Source: Acidobacteriaceae bacterium
GTDB lineage: Bacteria; Acidobacteriota; Terriglobia; Terriglobales; Acidobacteriaceae
DNA length: 64,000 bases
Direction: 5' to 3'
NCBI GenBank assembly: GCA_003156805.1
Contig: PMHV01000059.1
Location: 121,983-185,982, forward strand
In this document: one piece after another, positions 2 through 64,000 of the stretch
Position numbering within the stretch: the first letter of the stretch is position 1
Layout: every line of letters begins with the position of its first letter
Notes under the pieces: generated by a model
What the model saw: the letters and a program-made list of their open reading frames with translations, nothing else
Database searches by the model: none
Told to the model about the DNA's origin: nothing
Program-made: the position numbers and the translations under genes

Positions 2-376
2 CATCGCCTGCGCGTCGCCGGCTTTGCCGGAGGGAGCCTGTTTACCGCTCAGGCGCTGGCGTCGCTGACTGAAATCACCGAAGGGATTCCCCGCAACATC
101 AACAATTTTTGCTTCAATGCGCTGTCGCTGGCCTGCGCCCTGCGGCAGAAGGTGATTGATGACGCAATTGTGCAGGAGGTAGTCTCCGATCTGGACATCT
201 CCCGGCACCTTTCGCAACCTGGGACTGGACGGCTGGCCGATCGCGGTAATTTCGACTACGAGTCGACCGCGAAGCGGATGGACGCCGATCGCGGAAAGGT
301 GGGAGCGCTGACGCCTACCGAAGCGCGTTCGTATCTGGAGCAGGTGGCGCGATCGCTCAAGAGCTGGCAGTCTTAA
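2..376 (+). CDS. ExeA-like AAA+ ATPase, C-terminal part (5' truncated)
   Basis: This reading frame is open from the window edge to a TAA at 374-376. It encodes the last ~124 residues of a larger protein. The segment containing G-I-P-R-N-I-N-N-F-C, followed by the helix L-S-L-A-C-A-L, is the sensor-2 region typical of GspA/ExeA-type AAA ATPases, and the residues before it (A-L-A-S-L-T-E-I-T-E-G) fit the same domain. In EPS and exosortase-type loci such ATPases precede a CpsD-like kinase, as here. The Walker motifs lie upstream of the window. The last ~60 residues (after V-I-D-D-A-I-V) are a poorly conserved tail. No start can be given. Family assignment is from motif recognition only. Confidence 0.75.
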   Translation, partial: HRLRVAGFAGGSLFTAQALASLTEITEGIPRNINNFCFNALSLACALRQKVIDDAIVQEVVSDLDISRHLSQPGTGRLADRGNFDYESTAKRMDADRGKVGALTPTEARSYLEQVARSLKSWQS

Positions 377-394
377 GAAGAAGTCTTAAGAAGA
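369..394. repeat. perfect 13-bp tandem duplication over a stop codon
   Basis: AGTCTTAAGAAGA occurs twice back to back (369-381 and 382-394). The first copy contains the TAA stop of the ExeA-like gene. It looks like a recent local tandem duplication at the gene end. The rest of the gap to 515 holds only a weak purine-rich stretch. Confidence 0.85.
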
Positions 395-1307: not shown

Positions 1308-1365
1308 GCGTGCGGCGTCAGCCGCGCTTCTGGTCGATTGTTCCTTCGGCGAATGTCAATTCGGC

Positions 1366-1403
1366 GATCATCACTTCGTCGATCGTTACTTCGTCGACCA
1401 TCG
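1366..1403. repeat. 15-bp tandem repeat just upstream of the acetyltransferase start
   Basis: GATCATCACTTCGTC (1366-1380) and GATCGTTACTTCGTC (1381-1395) are tandem 15-bp units, with a third half unit GACCATCG. If translation began at the GTG at 1310 this would encode a Ser/Thr/Ile-rich N-terminal tail. I think it lies in the leader. It belongs to the 15-bp repeat set described in the findings. Confidence 0.8.
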
Positions 1404-1435: not shown

Positions 1436-2161
1436 ATGTTTGACAATTTACGCGCTGATTTCCAGGCCGCCATGGGAGACCGCAAGATGGAGAGCGGCTG
1501 GTGGCGGGTTTTGTTTCACGTTGAAATGCCCGCCCTGTTGTGCTACCGCTACTCCCACTGGGTTGTGAATCTCAAGGTTCCGGTAGTGCGCCAGTTGCTC
1601 ATGATTCCGGCGCTGTTCTGGCAGCGCTTCAATCAGTTATTTCTGGGAGTGTTCATTTCACCCGACGCCGAGATTGGGCCGGGACTGGTCATTCATACGC
1701 CGCAAGGAGTCTACATTCCGCCGGTGAAGATCGGGCAAGGCGCGACGTTTCAGTCGGGTGTGTTGATTGGGTCGGGATGCCGCGGCGTGGGCGACAACGT
1801 TTATTTCGGCGCGGGCTGCAAGATTGTGGGCGACGCCAAGATCGGCAATAACGTGGTGATTGTGGCCAACAGCGTGGTGATCACCGACGTGCCCGACAAC
1901 ACCACCATCATGGGCGTACCGGCGCGGATCAAGCTGCCCGGCGGCAAGCCGCGGCGCTTCCCCTGGAAAGTCTCGGCAACCGAGGAAGAGACTAAGAATG
2001 CTGCGGCGAAAGCCAACGGCAACGCGGTGAAGGCCAATGGAACGCAAGCGAAGGCCAACGGAGCCGAGCCGAAGGTGAGCGAGCCAAGGACAAGCGAGCC
2101 GAAAACAAATGGCGCGCAAGAAAACGCGTTAGGTCAGACAGCTTCGGCCGCACGAAACTAG
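1436..2161 (+). CDS. hexapeptide-repeat (CysE/SAT-like) acetyltransferase of EPS locus
   Basis: 241 residues from the ATG at 1436. An upstream in-frame GTG at 1310 would add 42 low-complexity residues and is less likely. The protein starts M-F-D-N-L-R-A-D-F-Q-A-A-M, has a hydrophobic helix (L-L-M-I-P-A-L-F-W), then left-handed beta-helix hexapeptides: I-G-P-G-L-V-I-H, I-G-Q-G-A-T-F, V-G-D-N-V-Y-F-G-A-G, I-G-N-N-V-V-I, I-M-G-V-P-A-R. The H-T-P-Q-G-V-Y segment is as in serine acetyltransferase-type enzymes. The N-terminal CysE domain is short, as in EPS-locus versions, so it likely O- or N-acetylates a sugar. The last ~55 residues are a Lys/Ala/Asn/Gly/Glu/Pro repeat tail. Confidence 0.8.
   Translation: MFDNLRADFQAAMGDRKMESGWWRVLFHVEMPALLCYRYSHWVVNLKVPVVRQLLMIPALFWQRFNQLFLGVFISPDAEIGPGLVIHTPQGVYIPPVKIGQGATFQSGVLIGSGCRGVGDNVYFGAGCKIVGDAKIGNNVVIVANSVVITDVPDNTTIMGVPARIKLPGGKPRRFPWKVSATEEETKNAAAKANGNAVKANGTQAKANGAEPKVSEPRTSEPKTNGAQENALGQTASAARN
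2006..2113 (+). repeat. in-frame 21-bp and 15-bp tandem repeats (C-terminal tail)
   Basis: Three degenerate 21-bp units (2006-2026, 2027-2047, 2048-2068; each reads [AV]-K-A-N-G plus two residues) are followed by three 15-bp units (2069-2083, 2084-2098, 2099-2113; theme P-K-x-S-E). They encode a hydrophilic, probably disordered tail of the acetyltransferase. Confidence 0.8.
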
Positions 2162-3400: not shown

Positions 3401-3454
3401 CCAGCTTCAAGTCCTGAGCCAGCTTCAAATCTCAAGCCAGTTTCCAATCCTAAG
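3401..3454. repeat. 18-bp tandem repeat in the gap before the adenylation gene
   Basis: Three 18-bp units: 3401-3418, 3419-3436 and 3437-3454, theme CCAGCTTCAAxTCxxxAG, with a decayed unit before them. They fill the spacer between the dehydrogenase stop and the ribosome-binding site AAGAGAGA of the next gene. Confidence 0.85.
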
Positions 3455-9055: not shown

Positions 9056-12000
9056 TGACGCCGGGAGCACAATCTGTTTCACAGGAAACCCGTGCCGACC
9101 AGGCGTTGAGCCTGTACCGGCTGCTCGATCCCGAGATTCTCGCCAATCCTTATCCTCTATTTCAGAGGTTGCGGGAAGAAGATCCGGTGCACTGGGATCC
9201 CTTCCTGCACGCCTGGGTAGTGACGCGCTACGCGGATGTGCTGGAGGTGCTGCATACTTTTTCCGCGGACCGCACCCCCACTCCCGAGCAATTGGCCAGC
9301 ATGGGCCTTTCGCATCTGGGGCCCATCGCGCAAGTGATGGTGAAGCAGATGCTGTTCATGGACGGAGCGGCGCACGCGCGGCTGCGCGGTCTGGCTTCCG
9401 CGGCCTTCACGCCGGCGCGGGTGAATGCGCTGAAGTCGCATATTCAGGAGATTGTGAACAGCCTTCTGGATGCGGTGGAGAAGCGCGGCCACATGGACGT
9501 GATCGCGGATTTGGCCGAGCCTGTGCCAGCCATTGTGACTGCGGAAATGCTGGGCGTTCCGGTCAGCGACCGGCAGCAGTTGAAAGAGTGGTCGGCGAAT
9601 TTCGCGGAGATGCTGGGAAATTTCCAGCACAATCCCGAGCGCGCGCAATTGATGCTGCGCACGGTGGAAGACATGACCGCGTATTTCCGCGAGGCCATTC
9701 GCGAAACCCAGCGTCACCCGCGCGAGGGACTGATTCATTCGCTGCTCACGGCGGAAATCGACGGAGACCGTTTAGCGGAAGAGGAAATCGTCGCCAACAC
9801 CATCGTAACCATGGTCGGCGGCCAGGAAACTACCACCAACCTGATCGGCAACGGAGTGCTCACGCTGCTGCGCCATCCCGATCAGATGCAAAAGTTGCGC
9901 AATGATCTGTCTTTGATTCCGCTGGCGGTGGAAGAATTGCTGCGCTACGAGAGTCCCAGCCAGCATACCGCCAGGCTGGCGCCGTGCGACCGCGAGTTGG
10001 GAGGCAAACAGATTCGCCAGCGCGAAGCCGTGATTGCGGTGATGGCGGCCGCGAATCGCGATCCGGAAAGATTTCCCAACCCGGACGCCTTTGAGATTGC
10101 CCGCAGCGATAACCGTCATCTGGCATTCGGATATGCCGCGCATTTCTGTTTTGGCGCACCTCTGGCGCGGCTGGAGGGTCAGATCGTGTTCGAGACGCTT
10201 CTGCGCCGCCTGCCTCATCTGCGTCTGGAACCGCAAAAATTCGTCTGGCGAACCAACCTGGGGCTGCGCGGACTTACTTCTTTGAAAGTCAGGTTTGACG
10301 CAGAGTCGGGAGCGCGGGAGAGCGCCTCGGAGCAGGAGCCGCGGGCTCTCGAATCGTCCATTCCGACCGCCGGAGTTAAGACGTCCGCTGCAGACGTACC
10401 ACTGGCGAACGTATCATCGGCCATTGCCTCTTCGATAGCTTCGTCACCGGTTTCGTCGGTTCAGAACCCGCTGTCTCAGAGCGATGATTTGCAGCGGCTG
10501 CTGGCCGAATGGAACAACACGCAGGCGGAGTATCCTTCCGAGCAATGCGTTCACCAGTTGGTGGAAGCGCAAGTTCGCCGAACGCCGGATGCCAGTGCAG
10601 TTATACAAGGAGCGACGCGGTCTCGAGAAAAACGGCGGCTGAGCTATCGCGAACTGAATCGGAGCGCCAACCAGTTGGCGCATTACCTTAAGAAAAAATC
10701 CGTCGGGCCGGAAGTTGTGGTCGGAATCTGTTTGAGGCGGTCGCCCGAGCTGATGATTGCGTTACTCGGTGTTCTGAAGGCCGGGGGCGCATGCCTGCCG
10801 CTCGATCCGGATTATCCAAAAGAGCGGTTGGCTTACATGCTGGAAGATTCGCAGGCTTCCGTGTTGCTGACGCAGCCGGATTTGCTTCCGCGATTGGGGA
10901 AAGTCAATGCAGAAGTTGTGCTCATGGAGCCGAAGCTGGCCATCCTCGAGGGCGAGAGCGGGGAGAATCCTGAAGCGGCTGCGACCGCCGGCAGTCTCGC
11001 TTACCTGATCTACACCTCTGGATCGACGGGAAAACCCCGGGGCGTGCTGCTGACGCATCGCGGCCTGGTCAATCACAATGTGGCGGCGATTCCGCTTTAC
11101 GGGATCGAAGCCAGCGACCGCGTGCTGCAATTTGCTTCCATTAGTTTCGATATTGCGATTGAGGAAATCTGGCCGAGTTGGATGGCCGGGGCCACGCTGG
11201 TATTGCGCACGGCAGAGATGCCCATGGGCGCATCGGAGTTTCTCGGATGGATTCGCGAGCAGCGGCTGACGGTTCTGAACCTGCCCACCGCCTACTGGCA
11301 CGAGTTGGTGCGCGAGTTGGCCGAATCCGGGCAGACGGTGCCGGAGAATCTGCGGCTCGTGATTGTGGGCGGCGAGAAGGCTTCGTCGGCGGCCTACAAA
11401 TCCTGGCTCAAAGCCGGCGGCGACCGGGTGCGCTGGATCAACACGTACGGCCCGACCGAGGCCAGCGTCATCGCCACATCGTACGAGCCAAATCCGGCAC
11501 AGGCAGTGCCGCAGAACTTGCCTATCGGGCGGCCCATTGCGAATACCGAAATCTACATTCTCGATGAAAACCTGAAGCCCGTTCCGGTTGGCACTCCCGG
11601 CGAACTGCACATTGGCGGCCCGGGGCTGGCGCGTGGATATCTGAACCGTCCGGAGATGACCGCCGCAAAGTTTATTCTCCACCCGTTCCGGAACCATGAC
11701 GCCCGCCTCTACAAGACCGGCGACTCGGCGCGATACCTGCCCACCGGGGACATCGAATTTATCGGCCGTACCGATTTCCAGGTAAAGATTCGCGGCTACC
11801 GGGTTGAGCTGGGAGAAATTGAAGCGGCGCTGGAAAAAGTTCCCGGTGTCCGCGAGTGTGTGGTCATCGCCTGCGAAGAAGACGGCGAGAAACGACTGGC
11901 GGGCTATGTCGTCGCTTCTCTGGAGCGCGCTCCCACGCCATCTGATCTCAGAGGATTTCTGAAGAAAGAGTTGCCGGAATACATGGTTCCGGCAGACTTT

Positions 12001-52011: not shown

Positions 52012-54238
52012 GCTCGCGACCATCCTGCAGGTGGGGCGCACGTTTGGTGTGCGCGACGGCGCGCTGCGCCTGGGATATGAGTTGCAGCGGGGCAGCGGCG
52101 TGATGTCGCGCCGCATGAGGTCGGTGGAGGGCTGGAGTTCCTGGGAACTGAATCGTATAGCTCCGGGATTTAGCGGAGAAGATCTGCTTGCCGCTCGCCG
52201 CGATGGAACGCGTCCGTTTTTCTTTGCCGACGCGCCGGCCCTTGGGAAAGGCATCCGAGAAATTGTGTGCGCGGACGGAGAGCGCAGCATTATCGAAGAG
52301 GCGAAAAACATTCTTGCAGGCAGTTTGCCGTTTTTTGGAAGGCTGTGGTTTGCCTGCGGTTTTCCGCCGCAATGGTTGCGCAATCCGGCCACGGGGCAGC
52401 AGGTTTCACAGCAACGTCCGTGGACCACGATGCGTTTTGCCTCGCCTGCTTATGGCGACCTGAAATTTATCCTGGAGCCGTCGAGATTCTTGTTTGTTTA
52501 TCCCTTGGTTCGCGCCTACGCTCTCAGCGGCGACGAACAATACGCTGAAGCTTTTTGGATCGCGATTGAAGACTGGGCGCGAAACAGTCCGCCGATGGCC
52601 GGGCCGCTGTGGATATGCGGCCAGGAGTGCTCGTTGCGGATTCTGGCGTGGTCGTTCGGTTTGTATGCATTCATCCACGCGGCCGCTACTTCGGCCGAAA
52701 GAGTGGCTCTGCTGACGCGCATGATTGCAGCACACGTTTGGCGGATTCGAACAACTTTAAGCTATGCCCGCTCGCAGCGCAGCAATCACCTGGTGAGTGA
52801 GGCCGCCGGACTTTGGACCGCGGGCACGCTCTATCCTGAGTTGAAAGGCGCATGCGCGTGGCAGAATCTTGGCGCGCGGCTTTTGCGCGAGGCGGTTCTT
52901 GATCAGATTACGCCGCAGGGCGCGCCGCAGCAGCACTCCTTCAACTATCAGCGAATGGTGCTGCATTTAGTGTTGTGGACGCTGCGGCTGGCCGAGATTC
53001 ATCGCGCCGCGCTCGACCAAGACATCAGTGCCCGCGCGCACGCGGCTCTCGATTTCATGCGCGCTTGCGTGGATCCGGTGAGCGGGCACGCGCCGAAATA
53101 TGGCTCCGACGATGGCAGTTTGATTTTGCCGCTTACGCTTTGCGATTACGGCGATTATCGTCCGCTGCTGCAATTGGGCGCCGCAGTGCTCGGTCGCCCG
53201 GACTTGCCGCCGGGCCCTTGGGATGAGGCTGCGCTCTGGTTGTGCGGCGATCTTGGTCAAGTCCCGCAAGCCAGTAAGAAAAATGAAACGCCGCGAGTTT
53301 CTGCATCGACATCCGTCGAAACGGGCTACCATCGCCTGGGTGATGAAAACTCGTGGGCGCTGATTCGCGCGGGCCGATACGCTCGCCGTCCCGTGCAGGC
53401 GGATCAGTTGCACGTCGACTTGTGGTGGCGCGGCTTCAATGTGGCCCGCGATGCGGGGACGTATCTCTACAACGGCGAGCCGCCATGGAATAACGGATTT
53501 TCGCGCACCCTGGTTCACAACACAATCACAGTGGATGGTCGCGACCAGATGCGGCGCGCCGGCCGGTTTCTCTGGGTTGACTGGGCGCAAGCGTCCGGCG
53601 AGTCGTACTCTTCGGCGAAAGGCATTTGCGCAGACCGTTTCGAGGGCGAGCACGACGGCTATCGGCGTTTCGGCGTGCGGCATCGGCGAATGGTGCAGTG
53701 GCTGGAGGACGCCGGCTGGGTCATCGTGGACGATGTGCTGGGCAATGATGTGCTCGCAGACGATGAACTCGGCGCGGGTGAGCACGAGGTGCGTTTACAC
53801 TGGCTGGCTGCCGATTTGCCGTTCGAAGTTTCTCATTCACCGTTTCAAGTCGTGTTCGCCGCGACGGACGCGGACTTCCGCTGGAGTTTCTTCGCCAGCG
53901 CGCCCGGAAATGCGGCGGTGATTCGAGCGGGAGAGAGTTCTAGTCCGGAAGTCGCGGGCGCCGACGCGAAGTTGTTGGGCTGGGAGTCGCCCACCTATGG
54001 CGAGCTTCGGCCAGCAGTTTCGCTGGTCTATCAGATTCGTGCGCCGTTGCCGGTTCGCCTGGTCAGCGTGATTCTTGCGAACGAGGAATGCCGGGTCGAG
54101 ATCGAAGAAAAAAAGCCGGAAGAGAAAGAATTGATCGTTCGACGCCGTGAGTCCGAAATTTATCGGGTTAATTTTGCCGCGGACAGTCGCTATCGTGCAA
54201 CACCCGGCGGACGGAAAGCCACGGTGCGACAAGGATGA
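52004..54238 (+). CDS. heparinase II/III-family protein
   Basis: 744 residues from the ATG at 52004 (AGGA upstream, 8-bp overlap with the formyltransferase). N-terminal alpha/alpha toroid (I-L-A-G-S-L-P-F-F-G; S-N-H-L-V-S-E-A-A-G-L; Q-H-S-F-N-Y-Q-R-M-V, holding the conserved Asn/His and Tyr regions) and C-terminal beta-sandwich (H-L/A-D-Q-L-H-V-D-L-W-W-R-G, D-A-G-T-Y-L-Y-N, N-T-I-T-V-D-G-R-D-Q). Members in EPS loci are thought to be periplasmic uronate lyases, but no signal peptide is visible here. A 15-bp repeat insertion lies in the beta-sandwich part. Confidence 0.88.
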   Translation: MGKLATILQVGRTFGVRDGALRLGYELQRGSGVMSRRMRSVEGWSSWELNRIAPGFSGEDLLAARRDGTRPFFFADAPALGKGIREIVCADGERSIIEEAKNILAGSLPFFGRLWFACGFPPQWLRNPATGQQVSQQRPWTTMRFASPAYGDLKFILEPSRFLFVYPLVRAYALSGDEQYAEAFWIAIEDWARNSPPMAGPLWICGQECSLRILAWSFGLYAFIHAAATSAERVALLTRMIAAHVWRIRTTLSYARSQRSNHLVSEAAGLWTAGTLYPELKGACAWQNLGARLLREAVLDQITPQGAPQQHSFNYQRMVLHLVLWTLRLAEIHRAALDQDISARAHAALDFMRACVDPVSGHAPKYGSDDGSLILPLTLCDYGDYRPLLQLGAAVLGRPDLPPGPWDEAALWLCGDLGQVPQASKKNETPRVSASTSVETGYHRLGDENSWALIRAGRYARRPVQADQLHVDLWWRGFNVARDAGTYLYNGEPPWNNGFSRTLVHNTITVDGRDQMRRAGRFLWVDWAQASGESYSSAKGICADRFEGEHDGYRRFGVRHRRMVQWLEDAGWVIVDDVLGNDVLADDELGAGEHEVRLHWLAADLPFEVSHSPFQVVFAATDADFRWSFFASAPGNAAVIRAGESSSPEVAGADAKLLGWESPTYGELRPAVSLVYQIRAPLPVRLVSVILANEECRVEIEEKKPEEKELIVRRRESEIYRVNFAADSRYRATPGGRKATVRQG
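53732..53776 (+). repeat. 15-bp tandem repeat inside the heparinase-like gene
   Basis: GATGTGCTGGGCAAT, GATGTGCTCGCAGAC and GATGAACTCGGCGCG are tandem 15-bp units. They encode D-V-L-G-N, D-V-L-A-D and D-E-L-G-A in a loop between beta strands (after G-W-V-I-V-D). The middle unit matches a unit in the GT4 gene at 57274-57288 at 13 of 15 bases. Confidence 0.88.
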
Positions 54239-56580
54239 AGCAGGTTCTGCAGGACGCTCGCACGGGCGAGATCGAAGTCGCCGAAGTTCCCTCGCCAAGA
54301 TTGCTGGCGGGATGCGTTTTAGTGCGCACGGCCGCGTCTCTGGTTTCCGCGGGCACGGAGCGCGCGTCTTCCGAGTTTGCGCGGAAGAATCTGTTGCAAA
54401 AAGCAAAAGTGCGGCCCGACCTGGTCCGCGAGGTTCTCAACAAGATCAGCCGCGACGGTTTGCTGGCAACGATGTCAGCGGTTCGCACGCGTCTCGATCA
54501 GCCCGGCGTTTTGGGATACAGCAGCGCCGGAACGGTGGTCGCGGTGGGCGAGGGAATCGCCGATATTCAGGTGGGCGATCGAGTGTCGTGCGCCGGCACC
54601 GGCCATGCCGTACATGCGGAATTCGCCTGTGTTCCGCGCCTGCTGGCCGCGCGCATTCCGGCGGACTCGGTCAGTTTTGACGAAGCCGCATTTGCCACCG
54701 TTGGGGCCGTGGCGCTGCACGGCGTGCGCACCGCGGACGTCAAATTGGGCGACGTGGTTGCCGTGATCGGCCTGGGTTTGCTGGGTCAGTTGACGGTGCA
54801 GATTCTGAAGGCGGCTGGCTGTTGCGTGCTGGGCATGGACATTTCAGCCGAGCGCGCGCAGCTTGCGGCGCGCCTGGGCGCAGATGCTGTGAGCAGCTCA
54901 GCCTCTGGCTTTCTCGATTTATGCATGAGTCATTCTGCCGGGCATGGAGCTGACGCAGTCCTCATCACGGCGCAAACGGCCAATAACGATCCCGTGAATC
55001 TTGCCGCGGAAGTCGCTCGCGATCGCGCCGTGGTGGCTGCTGTGGGAACGATCGGCATGGATCTGCCGCGAAGATTCTTCTACCAGAAAGAACTAGACTT
55101 CCGCGTGTCCCGCTCCTATGGCCCCGGCCGTTATGATTCGGCCTACGAGCAGAAGGGAATTGATTATCCCATTGGCTATGTGCGCTGGACTGAAACGCGC
55201 AACATGGCAGCCTTTCTGAAGCTTCTCGCCGATCGCAAGCTCGATCTTCTTTCTCTGGTGACACATCGTTTTCCCGTCGATCGATCGCCCTCCGCATATG
55301 ACCTGATCGCCGGCAACGGCCATGAAGCGTTTCTCGGAGTGTTGATTACTTATCCGCAGCCAGCCGAACCAGCCCGAGCCGAACCAGCCCGAGCCGAACC
55401 AGCCCAGACCGAGCAATCCCAAGCCGGGCAAACTCAGGCCGGGCACGTTCATGGCGAAGAAGCCCGGCGACTAACCACGACAGGCTCTAACCTTGCCGGT
55501 ATTGATGTCGTCGGCGCAGCGACGAATTCGATTCGCATCGGTTTGCTCGGTGCAGGAAGCTTCGCCGTGGGCACGCTTCTCCCTGTGATCAAACAGCTTG
55601 GCGGTGTAGAGATGCGGACGGTCTGCGCCGCAAACGGCTCCCATGCGCGTCATGCAGCCTTAAAGTTCGGATTTCGTTCGCGCACCACCGATGAAGAAGA
55701 GATTTTTCGCGATTCCTCCGTGAACACGGTCGTGATTGCGACGCGGCATCATTTGCACGCTGCGCAGGTGATTGCCGCCATCCGTGCCGGCAAGCATGTG
55801 TACTGCGAAAAGCCGTTGTGCCTCAACGAATCGGAGTTGAGCAGGATTGCCGCCGCTCTCCATCCCCGAGTTGCGCTCGATCACCCGACTCGCACCCGGC
55901 GTCTTCTCATGGTCGGTTTCAATCGCCGCTTCGCTCCGCTGGCAGTGCGGATGAAAAGTTTCTTGAGCGAAGCCAACGAGCCGTTGGCGCTGCACTATCG
56001 CGTGAACGCTGGCTGGCTTCCAGCCGATCACTGGCTCAACGATCCCGAGCAGGGCGGAGGACGCATCCTCGGCGAGGTTTGCCACTTTGTGGACTTCCTG
56101 ACCTTCCTGACAGGATCGTCGCCAGTTGAAGTGCAAACTCGCAGCCTGGCCAATCCGGGGAAATATAGCAACGACAACGTGATGTGCTCGCTGCGCTTTG
56201 CCGACGGTTCGCAAGGCACAATCAGCTACCTGGCGAACGGCGATAAATCTTATTCGAAAGAACGAGTCGAAGTTTTCGGCGGCGGCGGCATTGCCGTGCT
56301 GGAAGATTTTCGCCGGCTCGAACTCGTTCGCCATGGGAAGAAGCGCACACTCCGATCGCACTTCCGCCCCGACAAGGGTCATCGCCGCGAATGGCAGGCG
56401 TTCGTCGCTGCGATCCAGACCGGAGCAGAGTCGCCCATTCCATTCCGCGAAATTGTCACTACCATGTTGGCGACGTTTGCCTTGCAAGAGTCACGATGCT
56501 TGGGGCAGCCGGTTACAGTTCGAGCACGCCAGGCAGATGAGCGTTCTTCGGGAATCACAGATTTTGATCGCGCTTCCTGA
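54235..56580 (+). CDS. bi-domain oxidoreductase: MDR dehydrogenase + GFO/IDH/MocA
   Basis: 781 residues, ATG overlapping the previous TGA by 4 bp. Residues 1-~372: medium-chain dehydrogenase/reductase with V-A-V-I-G-L-G-L-L-G-Q-L; no G-H-E zinc motif is evident. Residues ~377-425: repeat linker. Residues ~430-770: GFO/IDH/MocA domain with I-R-I-G-L-L-G-A-G-S-F-A, the E-K-P motif (Y-C-E-K-P-L-C) and G-G-R-I-L-G-E-V-C-H-F. This fusion recurs in polysaccharide loci next to heparinase-like genes and is thought to oxidise/reduce a nucleotide sugar or its intermediate. The exact substrate is unknown. Confidence 0.9.
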   Translation: MKQVLQDARTGEIEVAEVPSPRLLAGCVLVRTAASLVSAGTERASSEFARKNLLQKAKVRPDLVREVLNKISRDGLLATMSAVRTRLDQPGVLGYSSAGTVVAVGEGIADIQVGDRVSCAGTGHAVHAEFACVPRLLAARIPADSVSFDEAAFATVGAVALHGVRTADVKLGDVVAVIGLGLLGQLTVQILKAAGCCVLGMDISAERAQLAARLGADAVSSSASGFLDLCMSHSAGHGADAVLITAQTANNDPVNLAAEVARDRAVVAAVGTIGMDLPRRFFYQKELDFRVSRSYGPGRYDSAYEQKGIDYPIGYVRWTETRNMAAFLKLLADRKLDLLSLVTHRFPVDRSPSAYDLIAGNGHEAFLGVLITYPQPAEPARAEPARAEPAQTEQSQAGQTQAGHVHGEEARRLTTTGSNLAGIDVVGAATNSIRIGLLGAGSFAVGTLLPVIKQLGGVEMRTVCAANGSHARHAALKFGFRSRTTDEEEIFRDSSVNTVVIATRHHLHAAQVIAAIRAGKHVYCEKPLCLNESELSRIAAALHPRVALDHPTRTRRLLMVGFNRRFAPLAVRMKSFLSEANEPLALHYRVNAGWLPADHWLNDPEQGGGRILGEVCHFVDFLTFLTGSSPVEVQTRSLANPGKYSNDNVMCSLRFADGSQGTISYLANGDKSYSKERVEVFGGGGIAVLEDFRRLELVRHGKKRTLRSHFRPDKGHRREWQAFVAAIQTGAESPIPFREIVTTMLATFALQESRCLGQPVTVRARQADERSSGITDFDRAS
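55363..55452 (+). repeat. six-unit 15-bp repeat in the linker of the bi-domain oxidoreductase
   Basis: GCCGAACCAGCCCGA is repeated exactly at 55363-55377 and 55378-55392 and nearly at 55393-55407. Three decayed units follow (55408-55452). They encode A-E-P-A-R/Q pentapeptides, then T-E-Q-S-Q and A-G-Q-T-Q. The block sits exactly between the two enzyme domains. Confidence 0.95.
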
Positions 56581-56598
56581 CCAGCGATTCGCTTTCTC

Positions 56599-57936
56599 AT
56601 GAAGATTCTTTACGTCTCGCAATACTTTCCTCCGGAGATGGGAGCGCCGGCAGCGCGGGCGGCCGAATTGTCGCGGCATTGGGCCAGCGAGGGCCACGAG
56701 GTGACTGTGCTCACCGGGTTTCCCAACCATCCTGCCGGCATCGTGCCGCCGGAGTATCGCCACAAACTGCGGCGGCTGGTGATGCGCGAGCGCGTGCACA
56801 GTGTGGACGTCTTTCGCACCTGGCTCCTGCCGTTTCCTAACCGGAAGACCTACGAGCGCATGCTGAACTACGGCACGTTTTGCGCTTCAGCGGCCGTTAC
56901 AGGACTCTTTCTCCGCCGGCCGGACGTTGTGATTGCCACCTCGCCGCAATTGCTGGTTGGGCTTTCCGGTTGGTGGCTGGCGCGCTCGAAGCGCGTGCCT
57001 TTTGTTTTCGAGGTGCGCGATCTGTGGCCTGAATCCCTGGCTGCCGTGGGCGTGAGAAAGGACCATTCGCTCTTGTACTGGTCGCTCGGCAAGATTGCGG
57101 ACTTTCTCTATCGCCATTCCCGCCGCGTGGTGGTGGTCACACCCGCCTTTGCCGACTATCTGGTGAAGCACTGGAACGTAGCGCCCGAGAAAATCTCCGT
57201 GATCGAGAACGGGGTTGAAACTGATTTCTTTTCTCCGCAGCTGCACGATGGTCCGAGAAACGATGTTCTCACAGATGTTCTCGCAAACGATGTTCCCGGA
57301 GATGTTCCCAGAAGCGACGGCCTCAGAAGGGAACTGGGCGGGGAAGGCAAGTTCGTCGTCTCCTACATCGGCACCATAGGAATGGCGCAGGGGTTGGAAA
57401 TGATCGTCGATGCCGCTGCACGCCTGCAGAGTACGAATCCTGAGATTGTCTTCTGGATTGTCGGAGAAGGTGCGCAAAAAGATCACATTGCAGCTCTGCT
57501 CCAGAGCCGCGGCCTCAGCAATCTGAGAACGATCGCCCAGCAGCCGCGGCAGCAGATTCCGGCCTACATCGCCGCGTCGGATGTTTGCCTGGTCCTGCTC
57601 AAGAAAACCGAACTGTTCAAAACGGTCATTCCCACCAAGATGTTGGAGTTCATGTCTTGCGCGAGGCCGGTGATTCTTGGCGTCGAGGGCCAGGCCCGGA
57701 AGATTTTGCAGGAAGCCGATTGCGGACTCGCGATCGAACCTGAGAGTTCTGACGCCCTGGCGGATGCGATTCTCCGCCTGGCTGCCAGCCCGGAGTTAGC
57801 TCAGAAACTTGGGAAGAATGGCCGGGAATACGTGGTGCGCAAACTCTCTCGCCGACAAACGGCGGAAGATTACACGCAGATGTTGGAGGAGTTGTTGAAT
57901 CTGCCCCGGCGGGGTCGTTCGGCAGCCGCAGCCTGA
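56599..57936 (+). CDS. glycosyltransferase, GT4 family (WbuB-like)
   Basis: 445 residues. N-terminal I-L-Y-V-S-Q-Y-F-P-P-E-M-G-A-P-A-A-R, V-L-T-G-F-P-N-H-P and F-E-V-R-D-L-W-P-E-S are the signature of WbuB/L-fucosamine-transferase-type enzymes. C-terminal lobe: V-S-Y-I-G-T-I-G-M-A-Q-G-L, I-V-G-E-G-A, V-I-P-T-K-M-L-E-F-M-S-C-A-R-P-V. A repeat-encoded insertion of ~22 residues lies between the lobes. No good ribosome site precedes the ATG at 56599, which lies 18 bp after the oxidoreductase stop. Last gene of the operon, meeting the - strand Wza gene tail to tail. Confidence 0.9.
   Translation: MKILYVSQYFPPEMGAPAARAAELSRHWASEGHEVTVLTGFPNHPAGIVPPEYRHKLRRLVMRERVHSVDVFRTWLLPFPNRKTYERMLNYGTFCASAAVTGLFLRRPDVVIATSPQLLVGLSGWWLARSKRVPFVFEVRDLWPESLAAVGVRKDHSLLYWSLGKIADFLYRHSRRVVVVTPAFADYLVKHWNVAPEKISVIENGVETDFFSPQLHDGPRNDVLTDVLANDVPGDVPRSDGLRRELGGEGKFVVSYIGTIGMAQGLEMIVDAAARLQSTNPEIVFWIVGEGAQKDHIAALLQSRGLSNLRTIAQQPRQQIPAYIAASDVCLVLLKKTELFKTVIPTKMLEFMSCARPVILGVEGQARKILQEADCGLAIEPESSDALADAILRLAASPELAQKLGKNGREYVVRKLSRRQTAEDYTQMLEELLNLPRRGRSAAAA
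57247..57312 (+). repeat. mixed 15/12-bp tandem repeat inside the GT4 gene
   Basis: Units of 15, 12, 15, 12 and 12 bp, each starting GATG(G/T)TC, for example GATGTTCTCGCAAAC (57274-57288). They encode D-V-L/P-x-(x) repeats in the loop between the two Rossmann lobes, after E-N-G-V-E-T-D-F-F-S-P. All unit lengths are multiples of three. Confidence 0.88.
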
Positions 57937-57950
57937 AGAGTCTTTCTATC

Positions 57951-57982
57951 GGTTAAGGGTGCGCGCGGTTAAGGGTGTGCGG
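57951..57982. repeat. 16-bp tandem duplication between convergent genes
   Basis: GGTTAAGGGTGCGCGC and GGTTAAGGGTGTGCGG lie head to tail. The second copy contains the stop of the - strand Wza-type gene. No terminator hairpin is visible between the two converging genes. Confidence 0.8.
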
Positions 57983-59105
57983 CGTATACGCCTACTGCTG
58001 TTGCCATGGCCGTGGCAGCGTCAAAACCTTTTCCTGCCGCCACGCGAACTCCGCTGACCGGCACAAAAAGAATATCGTCGGCTTGCAAAACTACGTCCGG
58101 AGCCTTCGCTTCCAGCATCTTTTTCAGCGGCACGCGAGTCTCGGTCATTCCGCCTGGACCCTTGTGAATGATGCGAACGCCGCTCATCTTTGCCGTGTGA
58201 TTCGTTCCGCCCGCCAGCGCAATCGCCTGCAGCACCGTCAATGTGCCGTTATCCACGAGCAGGCCGCTGGGACGGCCCACGTCTCCCACCACATAAATCA
58301 CCGGCGCGCGCGGCACCGTGATCGTGTCTCCCGGAACTATCTCAATGTTATCCTGCAGATCGTCAGCCAGATTCCTCGGCAAAATCAACGTGATCGCTTG
58401 CGGCTGATTACGCCGGATGACGCTCACTTTTCTCGCGGCTGCAGCCGTGAAACCTCCCGCCGTCGAGATCAGATCGTACAACCGGTGGTCCCCCAGATCG
58501 GGGTAGATGCCGGGCCGGCCCACTTCTCCGAGGATGGTCACGCCCTGGGAAGCGGACTCGTCGCTGAAAATCGTGACGTGAGGACTGCGCACGAACCCGC
58601 CATCGGCCAGCCGTTTCTCGATCATCGCCTGTGCTTCTTCCACCGTCAGACCGCCGACGTGCACGTAGTCGATCAACGGCAGGTACACATCCCCGGAATT
58701 CCCCACTCTTGCCTTGGTGCTCAATTCCGGTACGTTGTAGACGCTGATTTCGAGAAGATCGCCGGGCCCCAGCCTTAGCAACGACGCGTCGTCATGATCG
58801 GTCGTAGCATGATCGGTCGTAGAAGCATCGGCCTTGGAATGGTCTGCCGTAGACGAAACTCCCGCAGGAACGCTGGTAACTGTCTGGGAAGCATCGGCAT
58901 CCCGGGGCGTGGTTCCGGTGGCTTGGGAGACTGGTTGAGCCGGTGGCCATGCGGAAGTGGCCGTCTGGGCGGGAGACGTGGGCTCCTGCTGCGCCCGCGC
59001 GCTGAAATTCGAGCTCACTACAAAAACCAAAACTGCCGCAATCAGGCTGCCGCGGCGGGCGAGATCGAATCTGCCGGACACCGTTCCCAGGCCCTTGTTG
59101 TGCAT
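57969..59105 (-). CDS. Wza-type polysaccharide export protein
   Basis: 378 residues from the ATG at 59105; an upstream ATG at 59186 would add 27 residues and bury the signal peptide. Signal segment R-R-G-S-L-I-A-A-V-L-V-F-V-V-S-S then A-R-A-Q; no lipobox Cys, unlike E. coli Wza. A Ser/Thr/Ala-rich spacer with the 15-bp repeats follows, then the poly-export domain (L-G-P-G-D-L-L-E-I-S-V-Y-N-V-P-E-L) and two SLBB-like units (V-T-I-L-G-E-V-G-R-P-G-I-Y; I-Y-V-V-G-D-V-G-R-P-S-G). Forms the outer-membrane or periplasmic export channel for the EPS. Only long gene on the - strand. Confidence 0.9.
   Translation of the reverse strand: MHNKGLGTVSGRFDLARRGSLIAAVLVFVVSSNFSARAQQEPTSPAQTATSAWPPAQPVSQATGTTPRDADASQTVTSVPAGVSSTADHSKADASTTDHATTDHDDASLLRLGPGDLLEISVYNVPELSTKARVGNSGDVYLPLIDYVHVGGLTVEEAQAMIEKRLADGGFVRSPHVTIFSDESASQGVTILGEVGRPGIYPDLGDHRLYDLISTAGGFTAAAARKVSVIRRNQPQAITLILPRNLADDLQDNIEIVPGDTITVPRAPVIYVVGDVGRPSGLLVDNGTLTVLQAIALAGGTNHTAKMSGVRIIHKGPGGMTETRVPLKKMLEAKAPDVVLQADDILFVPVSGVRVAAGKGFDAATAMATAVGVYAAHP
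58793..58852 (-). repeat. four-unit 15-bp repeat in the Wza-type gene
   Basis: CATGATCGGTCGTAG is perfectly duplicated (58793-58807, 58808-58822), followed by two diverged units. On the coding (-) strand it encodes the A-D-[HA]-S/x-[KT] theme of the disordered spacer after the signal peptide. The core CATGATCG recurs in the repeats at 59297 and 63552. Confidence 0.93.
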
Positions 59106-59206
59106 GAAGGATTCGTTCCGCAGTGTAGCACACATCCATTTGCAACCTGGCAGCAAAGCGGAATCGCTTCGCCCGGCGTTTTCCACAGATTTTGCGCGAA
59201 CGGGAA

Positions 59207-59235
59207 TTGAAAAGCGTCCTTCCGCCCTGTTAGAT
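59207..59235 (+). promoter_or_regulatory. weak candidate promoter for the WecA/MraY-like gene
   Basis: TTGAAA (59207-59212), 17-bp spacer, TTAGAT (59230-59235). It lies in the 287-bp divergent gap between the Wza-type gene and the transferase gene. The -10 is poor, so this is only a suggestion. Confidence 0.25.
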
Positions 59236-59296
59236 TTCCTGCACTCTCAAACGCAGACGGAACCTTGTAACGTACTTTCGGCAATCGACGCATGCT

Positions 59297-59356
59297 GCCA
59301 TGATCGCATTAACATGATCGGGCTAGCGTGATCGGCGCCAGAGTGATTGTGCGGGG
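59297..59356. repeat. four-unit 15-bp repeat in the divergent intergenic region
   Basis: GCCATGATCGCATTA, ACATGATCGGGCTAG, CGTGATCGGCGCCAG and AGTGATTGTGCGGGG follow each other exactly every 15 bp (theme x-[AG]TGATCGG). It is non-coding, 36 bp before the TTG start of the next gene, so the period is not simply a result of codon selection. Confidence 0.88.
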
Positions 59357-59392
59357 CGTCCATTTACCTGTGGTTGCCCTCAAGGGGGACAG

Positions 59393-61054
59393 TTGACGGT
59401 TGCTTTTTTCGTAATCTTTTTTCTGTCGCTGCTGTGCTCTTTCGTCCTGACCCGCTCGGTGCGCGACAAGGCCACCAAGCGCGCTTGGGTAGCCATTCCT
59501 TCCGATGGAAGACATCTCCACACCAAGCCGTTGCCCCGCCTGGGTGGAGTCGCAATTTTCATTTCGTTTTCGTTGAGCCTGGTGGCTGCGGCCGTCATGG
59601 CTTTCTGGAACAAAGAACTGCACTCCGCGCTGTCTCTCAAACCACTGTTGACCATCCTCGCGCCCGCTTCGCTGATATTTCTCCTGGGAGTTTATGACGA
59701 CCTTCATGGCGTGGGCCCCTACTTCAAGTTCGCGGTTCAAGGCATTGCCGCTACCATGCTGTTCGCCGGCGGCCTCCGGATTCTTGACGTTCCGGTATTG
59801 TTCGGGGCGCACCGCCTGCCTTGGTTTTTAGGCTTGCCGCTGACCATCCTGTGGGTCGTGGCCATCACCAATGCGTTCAACTTGATCGACGGACTGGACG
59901 GCCTGGCGGCGGGTTCGGCTTTGTTCTCGACGCTGGTGGCATTTGCGGTCGCACTGGTGAACGGCTATGCGCTAGTCACCGTGATGACCATCGCTCTGGC
60001 CGGCGCTATCCTCGGTTTTCTGCGCTACAATTTCAATCCGGCCACGATCTTTCTCGGAGATTCCGGTAGTCTGTTTATCGGATTTCTTCTCAGCGCTTTG
60101 GCGCTGGCTGGCGCGCAGAAGGCGCCGACCATCGTTGCCGTCGCCATTCCCGTAGTTTCCTTCGGCCTGCCGATTCTGGAGACATCGCTTTCCATTCTGC
60201 GCCGTTGGATCAGCGGCCGCCCGGTATTCACCGCCGACCGCGAACATATCCATCACAAACTTTTGCAGCACGGTCTCACGCACCGCCAGGTCGTCATCGT
60301 GCTTTACGGCGTCTCCGCCGTCTTCGCGCTTCTCAGTCTGTTCTTGCTTTGGCCCACCGGTAGTTCGCTGGGCTTGGTGTTGGCAGTCCTCGGCACCGGT
60401 ATCTGGATTGGCGTGCAGCGCCTGGGCTATCTCGAGCTTGGCGAGTTGGCTCGCATCGCCCAGCGCACCCTCGAACAGCGGCAGATTTTCATCAACAACC
60501 TCGCCATTCGCCGCGCCACCCAGGAACTGAAGGTGGTTCGTGATTACGAACAGATCTGGCGAATCCTGGAGGCAGCTTTCAGCTCCAATGATTTTGACGG
60601 GCTCGATGTCAAAGTCAAACTCTTTCCCGGCGAATATTTTCCTTTTGCCGGCGAATCTGCCGCCCAGCAGCGCCGCAGCGATCTTTCCTTTCACTGGGGA
60701 AAAAACCTCGGAGCAAAGAACGCCGGAGCAATGAATGCCGCAGCTATGACTGTCGAAGCAAAGAACGCCGGAGCAAAGACTGTCGGGGAAAAGCCTGGCG
60801 CATCGATGTCGCTTGAGGGCTTTCCCGTCTGGGCGCTCTCGTTCGATCTGGTCAGCACCTCCAATCGCCGGCGTGGCTCGCTGGTGCTGCACCGTCTATG
60901 CTCGCGCCCGGACCTGCAACTGGATATCAATCTGTTAACTTCAGCCTTCCCCATCGCACTCGCCGACGCGCTGGATCGCACTCTTCAGCCAGTAGTGGAA
61001 TTTATTCCGCGCACCGGAGAAGATCACGGCTTCATCGCCGCGCAAGCGGGATAG
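59393..61054 (+). CDS. WecA/TagO/MraY-type polyprenyl-phosphate sugar-1-phosphate transferase with long C-terminal extension
   Basis: 553 residues. TTG start with AAGGGGG 8 bases before it. PNPT core ~1-340: about 10 membrane helices, P-L-P-R-L-G-G, G-V-Y-D-D-L-H-G (Asp pair), N-A-F-N-L-I-D-G-L-D-G-L-A, F-L-G-D-S-G-S and the cytoplasmic H-I-H-H-K-L-L. It links a sugar-1-phosphate to undecaprenyl phosphate. The last ~200 residues (from L-A-R-I-A-Q-R-T-L-E-Q-R) are soluble, helical at first, of unknown function, and carry the 15-bp repeat block at ~440-469. Usual family members end near residue 350. Confidence 0.9.
   Translation: MTVAFFVIFFLSLLCSFVLTRSVRDKATKRAWVAIPSDGRHLHTKPLPRLGGVAIFISFSLSLVAAAVMAFWNKELHSALSLKPLLTILAPASLIFLLGVYDDLHGVGPYFKFAVQGIAATMLFAGGLRILDVPVLFGAHRLPWFLGLPLTILWVVAITNAFNLIDGLDGLAAGSALFSTLVAFAVALVNGYALVTVMTIALAGAILGFLRYNFNPATIFLGDSGSLFIGFLLSALALAGAQKAPTIVAVAIPVVSFGLPILETSLSILRRWISGRPVFTADREHIHHKLLQHGLTHRQVVIVLYGVSAVFALLSLFLLWPTGSSLGLVLAVLGTGIWIGVQRLGYLELGELARIAQRTLEQRQIFINNLAIRRATQELKVVRDYEQIWRILEAAFSSNDFDGLDVKVKLFPGEYFPFAGESAAQQRRSDLSFHWGKNLGAKNAGAMNAAAMTVEAKNAGAKTVGEKPGASMSLEGFPVWALSFDLVSTSNRRRGSLVLHRLCSRPDLQLDINLLTSAFPIALADALDRTLQPVVEFIPRTGEDHGFIAAQAG
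60710..60799 (+). repeat. six-unit 15-bp repeat in the transferase C-terminal extension
   Basis: GGAGCAAAGAACGCC and five variants follow in exact 15-bp steps (60710, 60725, 60740, 60755, 60770, 60785). They encode G-A-K-N-A, G-A-M-N-A, A-A-M-T-V, E-A-K-N-A, G-A-K-T-V and G-E-K-P-G. Confidence 0.95.
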
Positions 61055-61419
61055 CGCCGCCCAGGGAATCGCTGATTAGGTTTCGCAATCCCAACTTTGT
61101 CATCCCAGGTTTGTCATTCTGAGCGAAGCGAAGAATCCCTGTGCACGCCCTCGCCACCCGGCCCCGCAAGGCACTCCTGTCAGCGGCCGCGCAGCTTCGA
61201 TTTCTTTCCTGCTGGAACCTGTTCAGAGAGCCGCTGGCGGATCACAAACTGCTCACACTCATCGATGGGAATTGACAGCGAGGCTGGCAGAGCTTCGTTC
61301 GCCGACGTTCGTTCGGCTCTTCAGAAAAATATCGGGTCACAAACCAAACAAGCCTCAGCGCTCATCCGGCACTTAACCGGATGGCACGAGGCTTAATCTC
61401 TAAGAGGGAGGGTTGAAAG
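61055..61419. other. 365-bp intergenic region without a credible gene
   Basis: A frame at 61097-61396 is open but its start is produced by a dispersed repeat (see next entry) and the rest lacks family similarity. ATCCGG (61364-61369) and CCGGAT (61377-61382) form a small inverted repeat just after the pqqA gene on the - strand, a weak terminator candidate. Confidence 0.55.
61096..61140. repeat. dispersed 'HSERSEES'-type repeat with short tandem copies
   Basis: The core GTCATTCTGAGCGAAGCG (from 61113), followed by AAGAATCC, is a sequence found between genes in many bacteria, known for spurious peptides reading H-S-E-R-S-E-E-S. Here it is preceded by a 14-bp partial tandem copy (TTTGTCATCCCAGG at 61096-61109, then TTTGTCATTCTGAG). 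Confidence 0.75.
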
Positions 61420-61497
61420 TTACAGTTTCGCGCTGGCGTAAGAGTTGATCTCGCAATTCAAGCAAACTTCTTCAAAGGCGGGTGCTGTCCACTGCAT
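61420..61497 (-). CDS. pqqA: PqqA-type pyrroloquinoline quinone precursor peptide
   Basis: 25-codon gene. The peptide starts M-Q-W-T-A-P-A-F-E-E and ends C-E16-I-N-S-Y20-A-S-A-K-L. The W-T-x-P-x-F-x-E start and the Glu/Tyr pair four residues apart (E-x-x-x-Y) are the hallmarks of PqqA, whose Glu and Tyr are fused by PqqE to make PQQ. GGGGGA lies 4 bases before the ATG on this strand, a strong ribosome site. A longer in-frame ATG at 61725 has no similarity upstream of this Met. No pqqB, C, D or E gene is in the window, so this is an orphan copy or the maturation genes are elsewhere. An unrelated RiPP precursor is the alternative. Confidence 0.82.
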   Translation of the reverse strand: MQWTAPAFEEVCLNCEINSYASAKL

Positions 61498-61786
61498 GAG
61501 TTCCCCCAATCGGCTGGAGTAACTTCCTCCAAACCTACAAGCAAAGAATAACTCAGCCTTTCCCGGAATGCAATAGCCAGACTTCAGAGAATCCCCAAGC
61601 CCCGAAACCCTTGAAGGACAAGGCTTTCGTCCCTCACGCCGGGTTGCAAATTCTTGCACACCCTCTCGAAAGTATCGCCTCGCACTCGATCCGCGCTTTT
61701 CCACAGCGCGAACCAGTGCGGCCACTTACTCTCGTCGCGCCAACTATTTACCTTTCCCGCTGGCATGGAAGCGAGGATTCGGCCTC

Positions 61787-62752
61787 ATGTTTAGCGAGAG
61801 AACGTCTAGCAACACAATCTTTAGCAAGACAACGCTTAGCAAGACAAAGCTTAGCAAGAAAAAGTTTGGCAAGACCGTCTACGGCGGCACCTTCAAAGAC
61901 GTAAACTTTGTTCCTTTGCAGTTGGCCGCCTTTTGCGTCCAGTGTGAACTGATCGGCGCCAACGCCACTCCGCACTGTCTCGCGTGCGGCAGTCCAGCGT
62001 TGCTGAGTTTGTCGCGAGTTCTCGGCGGCTCGCTGAAACATCAGCAGACCGCGCATCTCATCACCGACTCCGAACTCGATAGGCTCGTCCGCGATCTGTT
62101 GCGCACCGTGCCCTCGCCCGACGAAGTCTCCGCCTCCGACCATCACTTCCGTGTGCCTTCGCTTGCCTTGCGCACTCAGCTCCGCGTCGCCAATGCCGCA
62201 CATCCAGCGTCGGGCTTTCATGCCGTCCACCTGACCGAAGAAGATTTCCATCCCGCCGAACTCAACCTTGAACCCGCCATCAGCGCTATCACCGAACGCG
62301 CCCGGCACCTCACCGGAGCCACCGGCGCCGCCATCGCCCTGCGCCGCGGCGAAGAGATCGTCTGCCGCGCTCGCTCCGGCCGCACTGCTCCCGATCTTGG
62401 CGTCCGCCTGCAAACCGACGCCGGCATTTCCGCCGAGTGCGTCCGCACCGGCGAAGTCATGTTGTGCCACGACGCCGAACGCAACCCGCGCGTCGATTTA
62501 GCCAGTTGCCGCCGCCTGGGAGTCCGCTCCATCCTCGTCTCTCCCCTGCGTCATTTCCGGCGCACGCTCGGCGTTTTCGAAGTATTGTCGTGCTCGCCTT
62601 CCGCCTTCGATCAAACCGATGTTGCCACCATGCAGCTTCTCTCCGGCCTCATGGTCGCCGCCATCGCCCGCATCTCCAGCCTGCACACTGCTCACCAACT
62701 GCAACGCGCCCACCAAACGGCAAACCGCCAACTGGCTGCCGAAAAATCCTGA
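61787..62752 (+). CDS. GAF-domain protein with N-terminal zinc-ribbon-like Cys pairs
   Basis: 321 residues. Residues 1-32 are the repeat-encoded Ser/Lys/Thr tail. A Cys pattern C-V-Q-C-(x9)-C-L-A-C (~residues 49-63) looks like a small zinc ribbon. The GAF domain spans ~165-305: A-T-G-A-A-I-A-L-R-R-G-E-E-I-V-C-R-A-R-S-G, G-I-S-A-E-C-V-R-T-G, V-R-S-I-L-V-S-P-L and L-G-V-F-E-V-L. No output domain is seen, so it may bind a small ligand or a partner. The 3' neighbour carries a second GAF of the same subtype (V-R-S-I-L theme), so the two are likely related and linked in function. Confidence 0.8.
   Translation: MFSERTSSNTIFSKTTLSKTKLSKKKFGKTVYGGTFKDVNFVPLQLAAFCVQCELIGANATPHCLACGSPALLSLSRVLGGSLKHQQTAHLITDSELDRLVRDLLRTVPSPDEVSASDHHFRVPSLALRTQLRVANAAHPASGFHAVHLTEEDFHPAELNLEPAISAITERARHLTGATGAAIALRRGEEIVCRARSGRTAPDLGVRLQTDAGISAECVRTGEVMLCHDAERNPRVDLASCRRLGVRSILVSPLRHFRRTLGVFEVLSCSPSAFDQTDVATMQLLSGLMVAAIARISSLHTAHQLQRAHQTANRQLAAEKS
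61791..61880 (+). repeat. six-unit 15-bp repeat at the 5' end of the GAF gene
   Basis: TTAGCAAGACAAAGC and five variants in exact 15-bp steps (61791, 61806, 61821, 61836, 61851, 61866; theme TTAGCAAGACAAxGC). Encodes S-x-T-x-L/S-x-K units, starting at the second codon of the GAF protein. Confidence 0.95.
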
Positions 62753-62975
62753 AGACACCCGCGAGCCGGGAAGGGGCACGACTTCGGTCGCGCCATAGGT
62801 CCAGCAGAATCAGACTGCGGCTTAGCCGCTGAGGCGGACTCTCGGCTCTCCTACGCCTGCTACGGCCCTCATTTCTTCCCTTTTTGCCCTTCCGATTTTC
62901 TTCCTGCTTTCTTTTCCTCATTCTCGCGGTAAGATGGTACCTCAGGGCTCACCCTCTTACCTCCGTAGGTTTGTC

Positions 62976-64000
62976 ATGATCTCCGGATTGCAGTCCGATC
63001 GCCGTCCCCGCCGTCGCGTGCGGCACAAGGTGCACGCTCCCGCCTATGCCAGCTTCAGCGGCGGCTCACAGAGCATCATGCTCGAGTTGAACGAGATTCT
63101 CGACATCAGTGAAGACGGCGTGAAGATCCAGTGCTCCTCGCCCATGGAAGCGGATCGATCCGTCGAGTTGTGCCTGGACCTCGCTGAATCCAGCGGCCAG
63201 ATTCACACCACCGGCCAGGTCGTTTGGTCCGACGGCGCCGGTCGCGTTGGCCTGCGCTTGCCCAACTTGGCCGATGCTCCACTGCGCCGTCTGCGCGAGT
63301 GGCTGTTTTTGAATGCGATGGTGGCCGCGGCCAATGCTGGCTCCTTCGTCAATGTCACGCCGCAACCGTCGTCGGAAGCCCCGGCGGTGAGGCCGAATTT
63401 CACCGACACGCTTACCGCGGTCTCCGCCGTGCAGAGAGAAGCCGAATCGCTGGGGTCGAGTCTCGATGCGCTGCTTGCGTTGGTCGCTTCTCGTGCGCAG
63501 ACCCTGCTCCAGGCTTCGGGTGCGGCCATTGCCTTAGCCGAGGAAGCCTTGATCGAAGCAGCCATGATCGAAACAGCCATGGCCGAAGCGGCAATGGAAG
63601 GAGGAGAAACGACCGAAGCAGCCATGGCCGAACCAGCCGCAGCCGCCGCCGGCGAGGCAGCCCAACCGCTGGTTGCAACTATGATTTGCCGCGCCAGCGC
63701 CGGCCCCAGCGCGCCGCCGGCCGGAGCCAGACTGCAAGTGGGCTTGGGTTTTTCCGGCGCATGCGTTCGCACCGGACTTCCCTTGCGCTGCGATGATGCC
63801 GCCACTGATCTGCGCGTCGATCGCGAAAGCTGTCGTGTTCTCGGCATCCGCTCCATCCTTGCCATTCCGCTGCGCATTGGCGAAAAGGTGATCGGTCTGC
63901 TCGAGGTCTTTTCTGACCAGCCTTCCAGATTTGCGGAAAACGACAGCGCCGCCATCCTGCAGCGCCTCGCCGAAACGATCCTGTCCGCGGTCCAACGCTC
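62976..64000 (+). CDS. PilZ-GAF protein (3' truncated by window end)
   Basis: 341 codons visible, no stop before the window end. Residues ~8-110 form a PilZ domain: basic R-R-P-R-R-R-V-R-H-K-V (RxxxR part of the c-di-GMP site) and D-I-S-E-D-G-V-K-I ([DN]-x-S-x-x-G). Residues ~150-341 form a GAF domain: A-S-G-A-A-I-A-L, then a 40-residue repeat insertion, then M-I-C-R-A-S-A-G, F-S-G-A-C-V-R-T-G and I-R-S-I-L-A-I-P-L. c-di-GMP-binding proteins often control EPS production post-translationally, so this may be the regulator of the locus. The ATG at 62976 has no clear ribosome site; the 223-bp gap before it has no other gene. Confidence 0.85.
   Translation, partial: MISGLQSDRRPRRRVRHKVHAPAYASFSGGSQSIMLELNEILDISEDGVKIQCSSPMEADRSVELCLDLAESSGQIHTTGQVVWSDGAGRVGLRLPNLADAPLRRLREWLFLNAMVAAANAGSFVNVTPQPSSEAPAVRPNFTDTLTAVSAVQREAESLGSSLDALLALVASRAQTLLQASGAAIALAEEALIEAAMIETAMAEAAMEGGETTEAAMAEPAAAAAGEAAQPLVATMICRASAGPSAPPAGARLQVGLGFSGACVRTGLPLRCDDAATDLRVDRESCRVLGIRSILAIPLRIGEKVIGLLEVFSDQPSRFAENDSAAILQRLAETILSAVQR
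63537..63656 (+). repeat. eight-unit 15-bp repeat inside the PilZ-GAF gene
   Basis: Units start every 15 bp from 63537; examples ATCGAAGCAGCCATG (63552), ATCGAAACAGCCATG (63567), ACCGAAGCAGCCATG (63612). They encode I/A/T-E-A/T-A-M pentapeptides. They interrupt the GAF domain between A-I-A-L and M-I-C-R-A, where the neighbouring GAF protein has only five residues. Confidence 0.95.

Follow-up and report, generated by a model that had tools for sequence, protein, structure and literature searches.

Short tandem arrays in the Terriglobales genome studied here very probably begin, judging from sequence comparisons, as homology-free duplications of 14–16 bp that are subsequently subject to a reading-frame filter in genes. 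The window, i.e., the whole 64-kb stretch of DNA that was analysed (G000:C13:121983-185982), belongs to a 5.03-Mb, Candidatus Sulfotelmatobacter-like genome. The bacteria concerned are uncultured soil organisms, and the duplications occur across their genus.

Short tandem arrays in the 64-kb window

Arrays in the window were detected with TRF, which is the source of all features below unless indicated otherwise, and weak sites were also read directly from the sequence. A 13-bp two-copy flush tandem duplication, AGTCTTAAGAAGA, is located at 369..394 (unstranded; 100% match, junction homology m=0). On the plus strand, the hexapeptide-transferase gene (1310-2161) bears a 15-bp array of 3.9 copies close to its N-terminus (1344..1402) and, in its C-terminal tail (2003..2108), a 21-bp array followed by a 15-bp array (2065-2108). 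An 18-bp array of 3.0 copies is intergenic (3401..3454, unstranded). Further plus-strand features are a weak 15-bp array, DDVLGNDVLADDELG, in a heparinase II/III-like gene (53729..53765), a 15-bp array in a fused oxidoreductase, between its alcohol-dehydrogenase and GFO/IDH/MocA domains (55362..55445), and a mixed 12/15-bp array in a group 1 glycosyltransferase (57258..57313; TRF for 12 bp at 57258-57295, and direct reading). Two convergent genes are separated by a 16-bp two-copy duplication with one mismatch, CGGTTAAGGGTGCGCG (57950..57981, unstranded). On the minus strand, the gene for a polysaccharide-export protein (57969-59105) contains, in its N-terminal spacer, a flush 15-bp duplication, CATGATCGGTCGTAG present twice, together with a decayed copy (58793..58831). 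A decayed non-coding array with TGATC-type motifs occupies 59300..59349 (unstranded; TRF at 59315-59347, and direct reading). Plus-strand 15-bp arrays also encode GAKNA-type pentapeptides in a glycosyl transferase family 4 gene (60709..60785; gene 59393-61054) and lengthen the N-terminus of a GAF protein (61790..61875), both from TRF and orthologs, and another lies in a PilZ-GAF protein (63545..63638).

This inventory largely reproduces the initial annotation, which had placed 15-bp periods at 1366, 2069, 53732, 55363, 58793, 59297, 60710, 61791 and 63537, with TRF arrays now at or near each of them; the 18-bp block at 3401 and the duplications of 13 bp at 369 and 16 bp at 57951 were each recovered by TRF, and the mixed 15/12-bp block given for 57247 corresponds to the 12/15-bp array described above. 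The blocks at 53732 and 59297 were detected, yet TRF scores of 45-46 mark them as weak or decayed, and the strict 15-bp period claimed for the latter does not hold, as the TGATC/TGATT motifs there, at 59301, 59315, 59329 and 59344, are spaced by 14, 14 and 15. Another 15-bp array, reported at 10414, is not supported, the best lag-15 match in the vicinity being 11/15 bases.

An intergenic 14-bp duplication adjoining TCATTCTGAGCGAAGCGAAGAATC was seen at 61088-61117. In its near-full exact form this motif has a single occurrence in the sampled 1.53 Mb of the genome, so that an exact repeat of high copy number can be discounted there. No RNA families were found within the window.

Arrays of about 15 bp are in excess across the genome

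The period spectrum was determined with TRF in 1.53 Mb of the genome, and triplets shuffled within 300 bp served as frame-preserving controls. The genome-wide 15-bp excess anticipated earlier was confirmed and is approximately tenfold: 79 arrays were observed vs 7.7 in shuffled sequence at a TRF score of at least 40, and 55 vs 1.3 at a score of at least 50. Since arrays of 14 bp (46 vs 5.3), 16 bp (22 vs 2.0), 12 bp (59 vs 14.3) and 7 bp (21 vs 0) also exceed the shuffles, a period of exactly 15 is limited to genes. Related sequences (1.66 Mb) gave a pattern like that of the window's genome.

The units of the arrays are mutually unrelated in sequence, and a BLAST search with one of the arrays gave nothing beyond weak matches; on these grounds a shared mobile repeat was rejected as their source. 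The arrays are clustered (variance 1.14 vs 0.67 expected per 10 kb), with clustering beyond chance in 10-kb bins at L046 and at 53.7-63.7 kb of the window. Inspection of the duplication list made no fixed breakpoint motif evident. As a separate observation in the genus set, GATC is over-represented in the units of 13-16 bp arrays (37 vs 16.3 expected) and CGCG is under-represented (6 vs 27.1 expected).

Duplication sizes in genes reflect a reading-frame filter

Genes were called with a simple codon-model caller, and arrays without internal substructure were taken for the pooled densities. In coding vs non-coding DNA, these were 11.2 vs 18.5 per Mb for 12 bp (ratio 0.61), 1.2 vs 15.6 for 13 bp (0.08), 0.8 vs 38.4 for 14 bp (0.02), 33.3 vs 42.6 for 15 bp (0.78), 0.8 vs 28.4 for 16 bp (0.03), 2.0 vs 1.4 for 17 bp and 3.6 vs 7.1 for 18 bp. 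In about half of the 14-bp arrays in non-coding DNA, the unit is a 7-bp dimer; these arrays form a class of their own and were removed from the pooled densities. A lag-7 signal is not present in the 15-bp units (0.22-0.24). When non-coding segments alone were rerun, 53 arrays were found at 14 bp, 33 at 15, 25 at 16 and 1 at 17, with shuffles at or below 1.4. The upper size edge in non-coding DNA is sharp, between 16 and 17 bp; the lower edge is less certain, because the TRF score limit conceals two-copy arrays below 12 bp. Exact non-coding duplications, which are free of this limit, likewise peak at 14-15.

As the 13-, 14- and 16-bp sizes are nearly missing from genes, and 14 and 16 bp are, like 15 bp, common in non-coding DNA, the generating process ignores frame, and the coding peak at 15 bp is therefore a reading-frame filter. 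The size of the duplications is fixed before selection, and genes retain the in-frame share at close to its non-coding density. The original description of the period as exactly 15 bp holds in genes and fails in non-coding DNA, where sizes are 14-16 bp; its argument that coding selection alone is insufficient stands.

The same densities bear on the idea that pentapeptide extensions were positively selected in surface or linker regions. Coding arrays do often lie in linkers, tails and loops, but this explanation is disfavoured by the non-coding arrays, which are equally or more dense, by the lack of sequence relationship among units and by the almost even spread of arrays along genes, so that we regard it as highly improbable.

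Isolated duplications lack junction microhomology

Mispairing at a direct repeat of m bases leaves m extra matches past the two copies; a homology-free event leaves chance matches. This logic was applied to isolated exact two-copy duplications of 12-60 bp in 3.19 Mb, a modest sample (n=30), in which m was 0 in 19 cases, 1 in 6, 2 in 2, 3 in 1 and 10-11 in two. All 30 were 12-20 bp long and none exceeded 20 bp. A value of m not above 2 was found in 27/30, which agrees with the no-homology null of 0.937 (p=0.29). The microhomology at duplication ends that is expected of a slippage-born minisatellite was thus not seen, while the flush duplication of local sequence expected of fill-in and end joining was. 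Larger m was seen mostly next to decayed copies, a setting in which the array is expected to have expanded later. Other Terriglobia contributed 3 isolated cases in 0.73 Mb (m 0, 3, 3), and no isolated two-copy cases were found in 0.55 Mb of E. coli and rhizobia.

Replication slippage had been put forward earlier as a birth route. In its ordinary form, short direct repeats about 15 bp apart mispair, the interval is duplicated, and selection retains the in-frame products. Slippage is the default account of minisatellites, it easily changes the copy number of multi-copy arrays, and junction extensions of 4-13 bp do occur in arrays with neighbouring copies. However, it is a poor account of the births themselves, since the isolated duplications are without junction microhomology and never longer than 20 bp; nor does it predict the 16-to-17 bp drop in non-coding DNA. 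We thus consider it unlikely as an overall explanation.

Flush junctions of this size might also be the footprints of a casposase-like transposase or integrase whose target-site duplications measure 14-16 bp and which has since departed. Casposases are known for target-site duplications of about 14-15 bp, and the size and the flush junctions are similar here. Against this, no inserted element was present in the arrays examined, no PF01867 (Cas1-family) match was found in the window's genome, which is 95% complete, and exact direct repeats 400-3500 bp apart become steadily rarer with increasing length and are not over-represented at 15-16 bp. Such an origin is therefore quite improbable.

Arrays copy local sequence and differ between lineages

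Comparisons with orthologs indicate where the units come from. In the window's GAF gene, the units copy the native first codons, TTTGGCAAGACCGTC (FGKTV). Inserted units in L107 copy the flanking native sequence GGTACCATGATCTGC in the ortholog DNA alignment, and its GTMIC units are recognisable as copies of neighbouring native codons. Similarly, IEHAP units precede native IEQWS in L103, and DSEKP-type units precede DSETG in L088.

The array in the family 4 glycosyl transferase is missing in about 85 orthologs; L107 carries a 15-bp array of independent origin at this position, where no more than one unit is present in its sister L089. Two lineages have gained unrelated 15-bp arrays at one site of this protein, a tolerated insertion point. 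At the fused oxidoreductase site, eight orthologs have roughly the ancestral stretch only, and at the heparinase II/III-like site the L107 and L089 orthologs carry a 12-bp array in the aligned region. Among coding arrays with at least two orthologs, 17/36 have a median ortholog occupancy below one half. Neighbouring copies are not more similar than others (0.791 vs 0.794), and with no such gradient the arrays look like the result of fast expansion and decay afterwards. One array is common to two species, L109 and L110.

The unit-number variation predicted by the initial annotation was seen between species, and its suggestion of a genome-wide process with birth and decay is supported by the excess in 1.53 Mb, the lineage-specific insertions and the diverged copies. 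The majority of the sequences are MAGs, hence an assembly artefact of metagenome bins has to be weighed. It is hardly credible, as the pattern repeats across MAG sets of different isolate naming series, including 0.8-2 Mb contigs, the units have diverged, L109 and L110 share one array, and an artefact would not produce frame filtering.

The surplus is specific to the 13-16 bp class and differs between taxa

Densities across taxa were compared for 13-16 bp arrays at a score of at least 50. The relatives are named Candidatus Sulfotelmatobacter, Acidobacteriaceae or Terriglobia MAGs, and most of the genomes are metagenome assemblies. The density was 65/Mb in the window's genome, 68/Mb in G014 and G019 together and 40/Mb in orthologous loci, vs 15/Mb in other family members and 23/Mb in other members of the order or class; the control samples were small, with 0/Mb in E. 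coli (0.15 Mb sampled) and 5/Mb in rhizobial replicons. Arrays of 17-24 bp occurred at about 19-38/Mb in all sets but E. coli, and this similarity makes the surplus specific to the 13-16 bp class.

Matches to Ku and to the LigD polymerase were found in the window's genome; they do not discriminate high- from low-density genomes. Ku was rejected as a discriminating factor, since low-density relatives (G064, G025, G026, G039 and G040) carry it too, and end joining alone thus fails to explain the enrichment.

A possible mechanism and its relation to known systems

The sharp size edge and the flush joints suggest a physical ruler. In the mechanism that we propose, a clade-wide mutation process would duplicate about 14-16 bp of any local sequence, with ends that need no homology. 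Two nicks or a staggered break would produce overhangs of roughly 15 nt; fill-in of both ends and their ligation by a Ku/LigD-type end-joining pathway would then duplicate the overhang and give just the size edge and flush joints observed. Once two copies are present, ordinary slippage or recombination could expand the array, which point mutation would then erode. Within genes, multiples of three alone would persist, hence the predominance of 15 bp there. This full account, combining homology-free births, the frame filter and staggered-break fill-in with end joining, is plausible, although we put it at somewhat below an even chance. A dedicated generator of repeats, as first envisaged, is possible. 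More specifically, staggered breaks might be made genome-wide by an enzyme or a repair intermediate that is peculiar to the clade and measures about 15 bp with a physical ruler, so generating in-frame insertions of five residues in proteins; we hold this to be rather doubtful, and no nicking or staggered-cutting enzyme was identified as the source of a 15-nt stagger.

In mammalian cells, offset nicks and Ku-dependent fill-in give small tandem duplications, while an alternative microhomology route gives larger ones with more microhomology (PMC8355091). The offset-nick duplications resemble the proposal made here in being small and local and in arising where breaks with complementary overhangs are end-joined; they differ in their eukaryotic factors, CST and Pol alpha-primase, and in overhangs set by the experimenter (PMC8355091). 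For duplications of 15 bp, the open literature yielded no bacterial counterpart.

Bacterial minisatellites and VNTRs share with the present arrays the short units, the lineage-variable unit number and the multiples of three in genes. Unlike these slippage-driven repeats, births here are genome-wide, from unrelated sequences, within a narrow 14-16 bp range and without junction homology. Heptanucleotide short tandem repeats (STRR) are known in cyanobacteria, and in the genomes studied here non-coding arrays of 7-bp units occur as well, as do 14-bp units made up of two 7-bp halves. The 15-bp class has no 7-bp unit or substructure that would place it among STRRs, and the 7-bp arrays reuse a few units (ACCTCGG, AACTGAG), which the 14-16 bp arrays do not. 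Non-coding 7-bp arrays number 22 vs 0 in shuffles (e.g., L015:14133-14256, L022:4905-4954 and L087:12553-12631); they are present in other Terriglobia too, resemble heptanucleotide STRRs and stand apart from the 14-16 bp arrays.

Multiples of three in genes are noted in a survey of satellites in prokaryotes, whose text does not contain 'acidobacteri' (PMC6749651); a study of KPC explains in-frame duplications of 3-84 bp by slippage or by routes that use microhomology (PMC12593533). No earlier report of a 14-16 bp class in this clade was found in the open literature. What the arrays point to is repair or cutting governed by a 15-bp ruler, of which the open bacterial literature searched gave no description. 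Short insertions are one route to protein linkers and extensions, and a bacterial lineage with plentiful duplications of near-fixed, frame-compatible size documents in nature the birth, filtering and loss of such insertions.
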